NCBI RefSeq assembly: GCF_015207265.1
Contig: NZ_JADEXE010000031.1
Location: 1 to 37,065 of the forward strand
Length of the DNA: 37,065 nucleotides
Direction of reading: 5' to 3'
Source of the DNA: Nodosilinea sp. LEGE 07298
Lineage (GTDB): Bacteria; Cyanobacteriota; Cyanobacteriia; Phormidesmidales; Phormidesmidaceae
The position numbers and the translations under genes are program-made. The notes under the pieces are model-generated. The model had not been told where the DNA came from. It saw nothing but the letters and a program-made list of their open reading frames with translations, and ran no database searches. Positions 8,561 to 13,647 of the stretch are shown piece after piece (positions within the stretch are counted from its first letter, which is position 1; every line of letters starts with the position of its first letter).

Positions 8561-9325
8561 TCAATGAAAATAAGACGCCCCATTCACATCAAAGGTGGCT
8601 CCGGTAGCATGAGGCGCTAACCCCGCCACCAAAAACGCCACCAGGTTAGCAATATCCTGCGGTTCTGCCGGGGCACCCATAGGAATATCACGGGTAACAT
8701 ACTCCGCTCCTCGCTCCGCCATTACCTGTTCAATGCGATCGGTGCGTACAAAGCCAGGCGCGATCGCATAAGCCCGCACCCCATCTTGGGCAAACCCCTT
8801 CGCTAGGCTGCGAGTGAGACCAATCACCCCTCCCTTCGAGGCCGCATAAGCCATAAACTCTGGCCCATCCCCCCGAAATGCGGCTCGACTGGCCAGGTTC
8901 ACTAGCGTACCGCCGCCCTGGGCTTGAAAGTGGCCTACAGCCTCCCGACACAGATCGGCCATAGCAATCAGATTGACTTGCAGCGTGTCCTGCCAAGCCG
9001 TCGACCATTGCTCCCAAGGATCTGTAATAGCGGCGGCAGGCATAGTGGCGGCGTTATTCACCACGGCGTTAATAACCTCGCCCTGGGTCAGGGCTTGCTG
9101 CCACAGCGCCAGGGCCGCCCCCGGCACCGCTAAATCGGCCTGCACCACGTGAATGCGTTCAGGTCCCAAATCGGCGGCAATTTGGTTGGCCTCAGCCTCT
9201 CCATGGCTGTAGTGGAGCAGGATCGATGCCCCCGCTTTGTGCAGGGTGCGGGCGATCGCCTCCCCAATGCCTCGGGAGCCGCCCGTCACCAACACCGTGC
9301 TGCCTTGTAAATCGATCAACGTCAT
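8561..9325 (-). CDS. short-chain dehydrogenase/reductase (FabG-like)
   Basis: A 254-residue Rossmann-fold oxidoreductase of the classical SDR type. The dinucleotide site is TGGSRGIG at 14-21, the structural motif is NNAA at 90-93 (usually NNAG), and the catalytic residues are Ser146 (NLASRAAF), Tyr160 and Lys164 (YAASK). TGGSRG and the overall length resemble 3-oxoacyl-ACP reductase, but SDRs of this type act on many sugars, alcohols and ketones, so the substrate cannot be assigned. ATG 9325 is the only sensible start. The gene is monocistronic, convergent with codA and divergent from the hli genes. Confidence 0.9.
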   Translation of the reverse strand: MTLIDLQGSTVLVTGGSRGIGEAIARTLHKAGASILLHYSHGEAEANQIAADLGPERIHVVQADLAVPGAALALWQQALTQGEVINAVVNNAATMPAAAITDPWEQWSTAWQDTLQVNLIAMADLCREAVGHFQAQGGGTLVNLASRAAFRGDGPEFMAYAASKGGVIGLTRSLAKGFAQDGVRAYAIAPGFVRTDRIEQVMAERGAEYVTRDIPMGAPAEPQDIANLVAFLVAGLAPHATGATFDVNGASYFH

Positions 9326-9465
9326 ACGTCATTGCCACTAGTGGTGACGCGCCCAAACCTTTTGCGAATCAAGCTTAGCCCCCGTAACTGGGGCGGTAGG
9401 GCACCTATAGCCAATGTACAGCGACAGTTACCCGCTCCAAAATGTAAAGAACTTAGCAATATTTG

Positions 9466-9483
9466 TTTACATTGCGTTACACT
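9466..9483 (+). promoter_or_regulatory. HLR1-like element (putative RpaB site) before hliA/B
   Basis: TTTACATTGCGTTACACT matches the HLR1 consensus (G/T)TTACA(T/A)2-N2-(G/T)TTACA(T/A)2 at 15 of 16 specified positions. It lies 33 nt before the ATG at 9517. HLR1 is the known binding site of the response regulator RpaB, which controls high-light genes in cyanobacteria. Binding here is inferred. Confidence 0.75.
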
Positions 9484-9516
9484 AAGCTTACAGAAGCAAG
9501 AAACGGAGAACATCCT

Positions 9517-9729
9517 ATGACCACTAGCGGTTACACCACCGAAGATGGCGGTCGCCTCAACAACTTCGCCGTTGAACCTAAGGTTTACGTCGATGACAGC
9601 CAGCAGTTTGGCTTCAACGAGTACGCCGAAAAGCTAAATGGTCGCTTAGCCATGATTGGCTTTGTATCTGCGGTACTCTTCGAGGCTGCTACTGGTCACG
9701 GCATCGTCACCTGGCTCACCAATCTGTAG
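9517..9729 (+). CDS. high-light-inducible protein, HliA/HliB type
   Basis: A 70-residue single-helix chlorophyll a/b-binding-like protein of the thylakoid membrane. The signature [12 protein letters not shown] (residues 39-50) starts the membrane helix and carries the Glu, Asn and Arg that bind chlorophyll and pair helices. The tail [11 protein letters not shown] is also typical. The length and the N-terminus MTTSGYT...RLNNFAVEP resemble Synechocystis HliA/HliB (ScpC/ScpD) as recalled. Such proteins bind chlorophyll and carotenoid and protect photosystem II assembly intermediates. GGAGA 8 nt upstream supports ATG 9517 over an upstream TTG. An HLR1-like site precedes it. HliA cannot be told from HliB here, so no symbol is given. 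Confidence 0.93.
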
Positions 9730-9829
9730 GCTCACTTAGGCGCGTCATCTGAACGCCTTCACACCGAGTTTCTCTATCGTGTCAATCGAATAAAGTTATC
9801 GTTCTCAGACCTACGGCCCAAAAACCCAT

Positions 9830-9847
9830 GTTACATTAAGTAACAGG
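9830..9847 (+). promoter_or_regulatory. HLR1-like element before hliC
   Basis: GTTACATTAAGTAACAGG matches the HLR1 consensus at 13 of 16 specified positions and begins 60 nt before the ATG at 9890. It suggests the second hli gene has its own high-light-responsive promoter; weaker than the copy at 9466. Confidence 0.5.
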
Positions 9848-9889
9848 ATATTGATTTTTGCCCCTCTATACACCTAGGAGATATCCATC

Positions 9890-10033
9890 ATGGAAACCAA
9901 CGAAACCAAGTTCGGCTTTGTCAACTTTGCAGAAACCTGGAACGGTCGCCTAGCGATGCTGGGCTTCGTAATTGGTGTAGCCACCGAGTTTCTGACCGGT
10001 CAGGGCATTCTGTCTCAAATCGGCATCATGTAG
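9890..10033 (+). CDS. hliC: high-light-inducible protein, HliC (ScpB) type
   Basis: A 47-residue protein beginning METNETKFGFVNFAETWNGR and ending QIGIM. Its core ETWNGRLAMLGF (residues 15-26) carries the conserved Glu, Asn and Arg of the Hli helix. Length and sequence resemble Synechocystis HliC (47 aa). HliC forms heterodimers with other Hli proteins and accompanies chlorophyll synthase or photosystem II assembly modules. A good Shine-Dalgarno AGGAGA (9876-9881) precedes the ATG. It sits 160 nt after the HliA/B-type gene on the same strand, so the two possible partners are encoded side by side. A strong terminator follows. Confidence 0.93.
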   Translation: METNETKFGFVNFAETWNGRLAMLGFVIGVATEFLTGQGILSQIGIM

Positions 10034-10060
10034 TTTGCCTACAGCCTGACAATTGAATAG

Positions 10061-10093
10061 AAAAAGGGGAGCAATAGTTTGCTCCCCTTTTTT
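10061..10093 (+). terminator. intrinsic terminator of hliC
   Basis: GGGGAGCAA (10066-10074), loop TAGT, TTGCTCCCC (10079-10087), flanked by five A (10061-10065) and six T (10088-10093). It is a classical rho-independent terminator and, by symmetry, could also work for the minus strand (frp ends at 10238). Confidence 0.92.
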
Positions 10094-10237
10094 GTTGGCT
10101 TTGTTGGCCTGGGCTTGCTGATATAGCTGTCATCAGCTTGATAGAGTCATGGCCCAGAGCCAGCGCTCAAGCGCTCTTAGAGTTTTTTGAGATCCTGATC
10201 AATGGGACTACCGCTGTAGCTAATGTGCAGCTAGCCT

Positions 10238-10567
10238 TCACATCATTCGGGTCAGGGCAGTTATCTTAGACAGCTTAAGGGGGTCTAGACCTCCTAAATC
10301 GTCTAAACTCAGCCAACCCTCTTTGACTAAGTCAGCAAATACAAAAATTAGCGCTGCTTCTCGTCCGTCATATTTACCATCAAGCTCATGGCGACGAGCG
10401 CTCAGAAAGTCGTGCAGACGCCAAATGTCATCGGTGTTAGCCACGGCACTGGCTTGATCTCGCACCACTTGCACTAAAGCTTTTATCTCTCGTTCGTAGG
10501 CCTTATCGAAGGCGGTCTTAGCAATGGACTGCTCCTGAGATGTCCACTGGAGTTCGCTGGTCTGCAT
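10238..10567 (-). CDS. frp: fluorescence recovery protein (FRP)
   Basis: A 109-residue helical protein that binds the C-terminal domain of photoactivated OCP, detaches it from the phycobilisome and speeds its return to the orange form. The signature segment DDIWRLHDFLSARRHELDG is present. Trp49, His52, Asp53 and Arg59 correspond to Trp50, His53, Asp54 and Arg60, known as functionally important in Synechocystis FRP. An in-frame ATG twelve codons upstream (10603) exists, but the start at 10567 gives the family's usual length. The gene lies downstream of ocp on the same strand, with an intervening terminator, so it probably has its own promoter. FRP accompanies OCP1-type proteins. Confidence 0.95.
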   Translation of the reverse strand: MQTSELQWTSQEQSIAKTAFDKAYEREIKALVQVVRDQASAVANTDDIWRLHDFLSARRHELDGKYDGREAALIFVFADLVKEGWLSLDDLGGLDPLKLSKITALTRMM

Positions 10568-10603
10568 GATTAGAGGGGTGAAAAAAGGATGAAAAGCCGC
10601 CAT

Positions 10604-10913
10604 AGATGATTCTTGAGCCCATACCCAGCACTATCGCAATGCTTGAGGAAGAACCTAGCTTAGATAAGGCTAAGGCTGAGCCCACAGTGAGTATCAGCCT
10701 TAGCTATATCTGTGTAGCAACTATGGATATTTATCTATATTAAGGAATATTACAGGCTTTTGCAAGCTCTCATAAACCAAAAACCACCCTCAGGCGAGAG
10801 TGGTTTTTGTTTAAGACTAAGCGGGCCTAACTAGGTAGCCAAAAAAGAAAAGCAGCTTTTGCAGGGAAATACCAAGATATTGACCCAGTCTCTAGCGATA
10901 CCTTAACAAGGCT
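10604..10913. other. ocp-frp intergenic region
   Basis: About 310 bases between ocp and frp. It holds the terminator at 10779-10808 and an AT-rich stretch near 10730-10750 that could carry the frp promoter. No further gene (such as a carotenoid ketolase, found here in some cyanobacteria) is present. Confidence 0.6.
10779..10808 (-). terminator. intrinsic terminator downstream of ocp
   Basis: AAAAACCAC (10779-10787) pairs with GTGGTTTTT (10800-10808) around a 12-nt loop that can pair further. A T-run follows on either strand. It lies 106 nt past the ocp stop and 212 nt before frp, so most ocp transcripts probably end before frp. Confidence 0.8.
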
Positions 10914-11873
10914 CTACCGCACTAGGTTTAGCAGCTCTTTGGGTGAGGCCAGTAGATCGATCGCCACAAAGAAAATTTTGCCTTCGGGGTTAATCAAAAA
11001 CCGCCAGGCAATGTTCATGCCGACTCCAGCGCCAAACCAAGGCGTTTGCACCTTGCCGGTAACCTTAATTTGGGTAAAGCCATCAGCGGCGGGTTCGGTA
11101 ACCCCACGCTCAGGGATCAGTTTGAGATTTTGGCAATCTTCCTGAAAGAAACGCAGCACGTTGGCCTTGCCCACGATGGGGCGCTGGAAGGGGGGTTGCA
11201 GCGCACCATCATCGGTAAATAGCTCGATGAGGGCATTAAAGTCGTTGGCATTGAGGTTGTTCATGTAAGCCAGTACCGTTTGGTTGTTGACTCCCTCAAT
11301 GGAGACCTGGCTGCGCTGGGTAACATCTTGGGGTGGCACTACAGGCTCGGCCACACGGGTGTAAGAGCCCATTTGCTTGGCGTCAAAGCCCATGTCAACC
11401 ACGGCATTGCGTAGCACCGTAATCTGCTGCCCCGACTCCAGGTTGCGAATTGATTGCAGCACCGCTGAGGCGTTAGCCGACAGCTGGTAGCCTTCGGGAA
11501 TGGGGGCAACAAAGCCTTCTTCCATCCATTGGCCCAGCTTGTACCAGAATCCCAGCTTGATATTGGGCGACCAGGTGGAGTAGGTGCGGCCAATGGGGGT
11601 ATCGGCTCGGTTGGCTAGGTCGCACATGACCTGCGATTGCTCTTGAAACGACATGGCTTTGATCTCATTCATGGTAGCCTCAGCAAACTGCATGCTTGCT
11701 GCGCCAGGAGCCGCAATGGTGATGCCTTTGCCCATATCGAGGTAGGCAAACCAGATTAATGCCAGTTGGTCTTCTGCACTCAGCTGCGTAAAGCGAGCAA
11801 TAGTGGCGGGTACCGCATCAGCAGTGAGGGTACTGGGGAAGATATTGCGCGCTGAATCGAGTGTGAACGGCAT
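10914..11873 (-). CDS. ocp: orange carotenoid protein (OCP1 type)
   Basis: A 319-residue two-domain photoreceptor that, in strong blue-green light, binds the phycobilisome and dissipates excitation as heat. The N-terminal helical carotenoid domain (about 1-165) keeps Tyr44, Trp110 and Arg155. The C-terminal NTF2-like domain keeps the keto-carotenoid hydrogen-bond pair as Tyr203 and Trp290 (Synechocystis Tyr201/Trp288). The offset of two comes from a linker two residues longer near 167-173. The residue matching Glu244, partner of Arg155 in the interdomain salt bridge, appears to be Asp246 (FFQEDCQNL); this alignment is from memory. An adjacent frp supports the OCP1 type. An HLR1-like element lies upstream. 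Confidence 0.97.
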   Translation of the reverse strand: MPFTLDSARNIFPSTLTADAVPATIARFTQLSAEDQLALIWFAYLDMGKGITIAAPGAASMQFAEATMNEIKAMSFQEQSQVMCDLANRADTPIGRTYSTWSPNIKLGFWYKLGQWMEEGFVAPIPEGYQLSANASAVLQSIRNLESGQQITVLRNAVVDMGFDAKQMGSYTRVAEPVVPPQDVTQRSQVSIEGVNNQTVLAYMNNLNANDFNALIELFTDDGALQPPFQRPIVGKANVLRFFQEDCQNLKLIPERGVTEPAADGFTQIKVTGKVQTPWFGAGVGMNIAWRFLINPEGKIFFVAIDLLASPKELLNLVR

Positions 11874-11929
11874 ACTGTGATTTCCTCAAAGGGTACTGGG
11901 CGAAATGACTGTAAATTTTGAAACATTTC

Positions 11930-11947
11930 CTTACAAAATTTAACATT
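11930..11947 (+). promoter_or_regulatory. HLR1-like element in the ocp/nfu divergent promoter
   Basis: CTTACAAAATTTAACATT matches the HLR1 consensus at 14 of 16 specified positions on the plus strand. It lies 56 nt upstream of the ocp start and 111 nt upstream of the divergent nfu gene. Orientation is opposite to ocp. Confidence 0.5.
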
Positions 11948-12058
11948 CAAAGGGCATCCACGCAAGATCAATGGCAACCATACGATCGCGTGCTTTGATT
12001 TAGGGGCAAAATCTCTAGAATGGGGATAGTCAACCCATAATTTTGGCAAACATCACCC

Positions 12059-12298
12059 ATGGAAACTCTTGCCCTTACCCCCCCCAATGTGGAGCAGGTC
12101 TTAGACGAACTGCGCCCCTACCTGCTTGCCGACGGCGGCAACGTAGAGCTGGTAGAAATTGATGGACCTGTCGTTAAGCTACGTCTGCAGGGGGCCTGTG
12201 GCTCTTGCCCCAGCTCTGCGATGACCCTGCGCATGGGCATTGAGCGCCGTCTGCGCGAGTTTATTCCTGAAATCGCTGAGATCGAGCAGGTATTTTAG
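12059..12298 (+). CDS. NifU-like Fe-S scaffold/carrier protein (Nfu)
   Basis: A 79-residue protein consisting only of the NifU C-terminal domain. The Fe-S ligand motif CGSCPSS carries Cys47 and Cys50; two subunits share one cluster. Such proteins (NifU/CnfU in cyanobacteria and plastids) carry clusters to photosystem I, ferredoxins and other targets. [18 protein letters not shown] is the standard domain start, so the gene is full length for this class. It is divergent from ocp and sits 71 nt before serS on the same strand. Confidence 0.93.
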
Positions 12299-12360
12299 GA
12301 ATGCTGATATTCTGTTCTATTGGCAAGGGGTTTTCCTGACGCCAGAGAATCAGATTTTAG

Positions 12361-13647
<1,287 letters not shown>

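Follow-up and report, generated by a model that had tools for sequence, protein, structure and literature searches.

An apparently exchangeable ocp gene with two promoter versions beside two probably RpaB-controlled hli genes in Nodosilinea

The window analyzed here is the whole stretch of 37,065 nucleotides from Nodosilinea sp. LEGE 07298 (contig NZ_JADEXE010000031.1), whose genome measures 7.25 Mb. The genes of interest lie in it in the order sdr(−), hliA/B(+), hliC(+), frp(−), ocp(−), nfu(+), and serS(+) (Table 1). Profile searches bore out the identities given in the first-pass annotation: both short Hli-type proteins exceeded the cut-off of PF00504, the chlorophyll a/b-binding motif, frp was recognized by PF18032, and the orange carotenoid protein (OCP) contains both its N-terminal carotenoid domain (PF09150) and the NTF2-like domain (PF02136). 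The N-terminus of the hliA/B-type protein is also Psb34-like, with a score under the NCBIfam cut-off, and the 47-residue Hli-type protein is one that we take to be HliC. The closest matches to ocp came from Nodosilinea and from relatives labelled Leptolyngbya or Phormidium. An Rfam search of positions 9000–12400 returned nothing above a gathering score. The gene rpaB is encoded in the same genome (NF045944 above cut-off) and was found with this model in 24 of the 25 genus genomes searched.

Table 1. Genes and putative control elements of the locus (positions within the window).
Feature	Position	Strand	Basis
HLR1 of hliA/B, 15/16, sense	9466–9483	+	motif score, conservation
hliA/B-type gene, 70 aa	9517–9729	+	PF00504
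HLR1-like element of hliC, antisense, 13/16 here, 12–14 in relatives	9827–9844	−	score, conservation
Sense reading of the hliC element, 13/16 here, 11–13 in relatives	9830–9847	+	
hliC-type gene, 47 aa	9890–10033	+	PF00504
Terminator-like hairpin 3′ of hliC, between convergent hliC and frp	10060–10093	+	
frp, fluorescence recovery protein, 121 aa	10238–10603	−	PF18032, E 1.8e-38, 131 bits
Putative frp promoter block: TTGCAA (10760–10765), 17 nt, TAATAT (10737–10742)	10732–10773	−	conservation
Terminator-like hairpin 3′ of ocp, before the frp promoter	10784–10797	−	
ocp, orange carotenoid protein, 319 aa, full-length	10914–11873	−	PF09150 + PF02136
Type A ocp promoter core; likely −35 TTGTAA (11931–11936), −10 TACAGT (11908–11913)	11910–11947	−	by eye
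HLR1-like element, 14/16, antisense to ocp, over the likely −35	11930–11947	+	score, conservation
nfu (NifU-like), right border of the exchangeable slot	12059–12298	+	PF01106

HLR1, the use of which on either strand is documented in the available text of PMC6331805, was scored as KTTACAWW-N2-KTTACAWW with 16 scored positions, while promoter boxes and transcription starts were assigned by eye. The scores of 15, 13, and 14 claimed at 33, 42, and 56 nt before hliA/B, hliC, and ocp, respectively, were reproduced. When Markov sequence modelled on the same regions was read on either strand in 1000 runs, the observed score was reached in 0.4% of the runs for hliA/B, 6.5% for hliC, and 1% for ocp. The whole genome holds 121 places with at least 14/16 matches (up to two mismatches) vs. 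98 with the reversed pattern, and among 295 generic upstream regions at loci of other cyanobacteria, 13 was reached in 49, 14 in 20 (9 reversed), and 15 in 5 (4 reversed). Since scores of 13–14 are this frequent by chance, those of hliC and ocp are weak by themselves and comparative evidence is needed for both, whereas the hliA/B match stands on its own. The best genome-wide matches (among them those in L002/L016, L003, and L014) include some that precede a Psb34-like gene and a further hli gene, as well as two arranged in tandem close to a small membrane protein (gene names by eye).

The hliA/B element overlaps the likely −10 box (9478–9483) and follows the likely −35 box (9454–9459), a position suited to a repressor. 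At this locus, 19 of 22 genomes could be scored, having 100 nt of upstream sequence available (L222, L226, and L237 were dropped for short or no upstream sequence or for having no hli gene); all 19 carry the element in the sense orientation with 14–16 matches, and none of 500 permuted motifs did as well. The 28 further hliA/B loci, the best matches from 145 genomes searched, scored 11–16 (mean 14.57), again with 0/500 permuted motifs as good. L040 and L122 were left out of the hliA/B rows of the distinct-upstream comparison because the contig stops before the gene.

For hliC, the score and spacing of the proposed element stood, but the antisense reading is the better supported. In the window, 13 matches are reached on both strands, and across 21 of the 22 genomes (L237, with no hli gene, was dropped) the antisense element scored 12–14, better than the sense reading in 16 and tied with it in 5; seven of 500 permuted motifs were as good. 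Eleven off-locus copies of hliC could be scored, ten with the element antisense and one sense, with 13–15 matches and 0/500 permuted motifs as good. With its place in the probable core promoter, the element is in a repressing position, and it overlaps a 17-bp palindrome at 9829–9845. As the site of another regulator the palindrome was set aside: with at most one mismatch it occurs 8 and 8 times on the two strands of the genome vs. 9 and 9 for the reversed sequence, and its half-sites differ among relatives. The consensus for NtcA is GTA-N8-TAC, and no match to it was seen by eye. L231 carries two copies of hliC. Conservation thus gives good support to predicted HLR1 control of both hli genes, strongly for hliA/B and less so for hliC, and RpaB would most likely repress both in low light.

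The first-pass annotation saw no HLR1 before frp and took this gene to be separately controlled. In the window the best frp score is indeed 12/16. In relatives the contrast with ocp is blurred, the frp promoters of 15 loci reaching 12–14 (22/500 permuted motifs as good) with the −35 box forming part of the match. The separate control itself gained support, as the TTGCAA and TAATAT boxes, 17–18 nt apart and with conserved flanks, were present in all 15 loci with ocp, and a hairpin follows ocp; the hairpin scan of the stretch found four terminator-like structures vs. 3.1 expected from shuffles. Together, these features make it likely that frp is transcribed separately from ocp.

As ocp is on the minus strand and its HLR1-like element on the plus strand, the site faces away from the gene. 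It occupies about −46 to −29 (start by eye), between the −66 to −45 range of activating sites and the −38 to +23 range of repressing sites given in the available text of PMC13421787. The likely −10 and −35 boxes show 8 of 12 matches, under the promoter-scan cut-off. The 16 distinct ocp upstream regions of the island, one of which (L038) is outside the 22-genome set, can be assigned to two promoter versions. Version A, found in the window and four others, has an ocp–nfu gap of 184–190 nt and an element of 13–14 matches. The remaining 11 have gaps of 271–605 nt, a different promoter, and no match above 12/16 within 300 nt. Comparison with relatives, through which the first-pass annotation proposed to check its sites, showed the hliA/B and hliC sites to be kept, and the ocp site to be present in only 5/16 distinct promoters. 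Within the 22-genome set, version A scored 13–14 in 5/5 (1/500 permuted motifs as good) and version B 10–11 in 10/10 within 100 nt (372/500 as good). The type B promoters (L219–L222, L226, L228, L230, L234, L236, and L237) share blocks around ATTTCTT, TAGACT/TAAACT, and GGTCAAGCTTTGAT, with variants. No significant homologue of the A or B promoter was found before ocp in the other loci searched (best E 0.2 and 0.37).

The match before ocp could simply reflect A+T-rich core-promoter sequence that resembles HLR1 by chance, with only the hli genes being RpaB targets and ocp being controlled otherwise. We regard this as a serious contender, falling somewhat short of an even chance. It is favored by the frequency of 14/16 matches in the genome and in generic upstream regions and by the 11/16 island promoters that have no element. 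Against it, 16 of the 18 element columns are invariant in the five type A promoters vs. 83 of 176 columns elsewhere, only one of 500 permuted motifs did as well, and the element resembles, by eye, the antisense HLR1 of the off-locus hliC copies. The five promoters are related copies, and their conserved block extends beyond the element toward ocp. Outside the island, 14 matches were reached in 11 of 66 ocp upstream regions (1.7 expected from shuffles; 4 reversed), some of the 11 being near relatives, and none of 300 permuted motifs was as good; yet 14 is also reached by generic (20/295) and frp (13/72) upstream regions, and at like A+T by 14/174 generic vs. 10/44 ocp regions. Because generic and frp regions reach this score too and some of the ocp matches are near kin, we claim no general link between ocp and HLR1. 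It is plausible that HLR1 controls ocp in this strain and in the four relatives sharing its promoter, and whether RpaB would repress version A in low light is about evenly balanced.

Nfu supplies iron–sulphur clusters to photosystem I, and the same element can be read as an activating RpaB site of nfu, lying in sense orientation 111 nt before its start. Orientation and spacing fit, as activating sites are placed about 50–100 nt 5′ of transcription starts in the available text of PMC11633204. However, the best score before nfu does not exceed 12/16 in any of the ten type B, two broken, and five empty genomes, and the element is tied to the ocp version. Since nfu is without such a match in these 17 non-A genomes, the element is probably not its own, and we set this improbable reading aside in favor of ocp.

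The slot between hliC and nfu was obtained for 20 of 25 genus relatives (none was found for G002, G006, G015, G019, and G022 among the loci searched). In the 22 genomes compared, it holds version A in 5, version B in 10, a broken ocp in 2, and is empty in 5. In the empty slots (L223, L225, L231, L232, and L238) nfu comes next after hliC, both frp and ocp being absent. In the broken ones (L224 and L227, genomes G008 and G011) ocp has lost its N-terminal half and the remainder contains a stop, the frp start looks degraded, and hliA/B is five residues short; no other full-length close ocp of these genomes was among the matches listed. L237, a version B genome, showed no hli gene next to frp.

The flanks of the slot and ocp have conflicting histories. 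In a strain tree built from the two neighboring genes serS and nfu (21 genomes; L220, with no serS, was left out), the window strain groups with three empty genomes (98/96). In the ocp tree (15 genomes), which is poorly resolved outside a few clades (6/12 inner branches open), the window ocp groups with L233 and L235 (100/99). AU tests, for which the groups were picked after the trees had been seen, rejected the clade of the window, L233, and L235 with serS+nfu (p = 3.8e-46), and with ocp they rejected L233 and L234 together (p = 9.4e-35) as well as L233, L235, L234, L221, and L226 together (p = 5.6e-05). A clade of all version A genomes was rejected by serS+nfu (p = 0.000165) but not by ocp (p = 0.43). 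Fourfold sites, used to lessen the effect of protein constraint, gave the same kind of contrast between genes. The window and L235 are 76% identical in ocp vs. 48% in sdr, 54% in serS, and 42% in frp. The window and L032 share 83% in frp vs. 50–58% in sdr, serS, and ocp, and L233 and L234 share 74% in sdr and 70% in serS vs. 38% in frp and 43% in ocp. The pair L229–L228 showed no such gene-to-gene contrast.

The promoter version tracks the ocp gene and not the strain, as it requires two changes on the ocp tree (15 genomes; 2/300 shuffles as few) vs. five on the serS+nfu tree (14 labelled genomes; 300/300 shuffles as few). We infer that ocp has been exchanged together with its promoter by recombination. 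Further ocp paralogues exist in some genomes, so the versions might instead be old duplicates sorted by differential loss without any exchange. Two ocp copies at the locus were seen in none of the 22 genomes, and an ocp identity of 76% between the window and L235, with 48–54% in the flanks, is not expected of old duplicates; we consider this reading unlikely and retain exchange.

Taken as a whole, the explanation that we favor, and hold to be somewhat more probable than its negation, is that the Nodosilinea locus consists of a mostly constant, RpaB-controlled part, hliA/B–hliC, and an exchangeable part, frp and ocp, between hliC and nfu. Bound to HLR1 in the core promoters, RpaB would keep hliA/B and hliC repressed in low light and derepress them in high light, an established mechanism that motif, position, and conservation lead us to apply here. 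The gene ocp, and partly separately frp, would be swapped among strains by homologous recombination through the conserved flanks, ocp moving with its promoter. In version A, with the antisense element over the likely −35 box, RpaB would probably repress ocp in low light; version B has a different promoter lacking HLR1, and frp retains its own promoter under either version. Both the binding of RpaB at the island and the direction of its regulation we infer from sequence. Of the single high-light switch for Hli and OCP that had been suggested, the hli part is well supported and the ocp part would extend at best to version A. As the promoter version goes with the exchangeable ocp and the other version is without HLR1, such a switch would at best be a property of one ocp version. 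That Nodosilinea swaps ocp with its promoter, that the versions differ in RpaB control, and that the coupling of Hli and OCP is in consequence a swappable strain trait is offered as a tentative proposal, with the balance tilting slightly against it.

How photosynthetic redox state is linked to ocp transcription is described as unknown in the available text of PMC8136909, where Hik33–RpaB and PedR are named as possible links. Close relatives that either have or lack an HLR1-like element at one and the same gene and locus constitute a natural experiment on this link, and, to judge from the exchange, swapping at a fixed site is one way in which OCP and its regulation can evolve. A literature search, outside of which lay the RpaB regulon paper (Riediger 2019, PMC6525291), turned up neither an HLR1 described before ocp nor any account of such an exchange. 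HLR1 control of hli genes, as predicted for this island, is known biology; the exchange of ocp together with its promoter would be the new part and worth following.

Among loci elsewhere, hli genes occur near ocp in 3/68 (many with short flanks), and the island therefore looks particular to the genus Nodosilinea. L165 (G049) has an ocp paralogue (55% identity) preceded on its own strand, at a distance of about 70 nt, by an hli-type gene, possibly as an hli–ocp operon, and in L073 (Halomicronema sp. CCY15110) hliA/B, ocp, frp, and hliC stand in a row on one strand, unlike the Nodosilinea arrangement.

In Synechocystis 6803 and S. elongatus 7942, RpaB controls hli (scp) genes through the same motif at the same core-promoter place and on either strand, according to the available text of PMC6331805 and PMC13421787. 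Here, in contrast, two adjacent hli genes have HLR1 on opposite strands and stand beside frp and ocp. The cyanobacterial ocp–frp pair, with frp following ocp on the same strand in 55/68 non-island loci, recurs in the island; it differs from the usual pair in lying between hliC and nfu, in the separate frp promoter, and in the two ocp promoter versions. A parallel to the exchange is offered by Acaryochloris marina MBIC11017, whose regained phycocyanin genes are thought, in the available text of PMC11633204, to have brought their own HLR1 elements. That acquisition was plasmid-borne, whereas in Nodosilinea the exchange would take place at one slot beside the hli genes, with some of the versions lacking HLR1.
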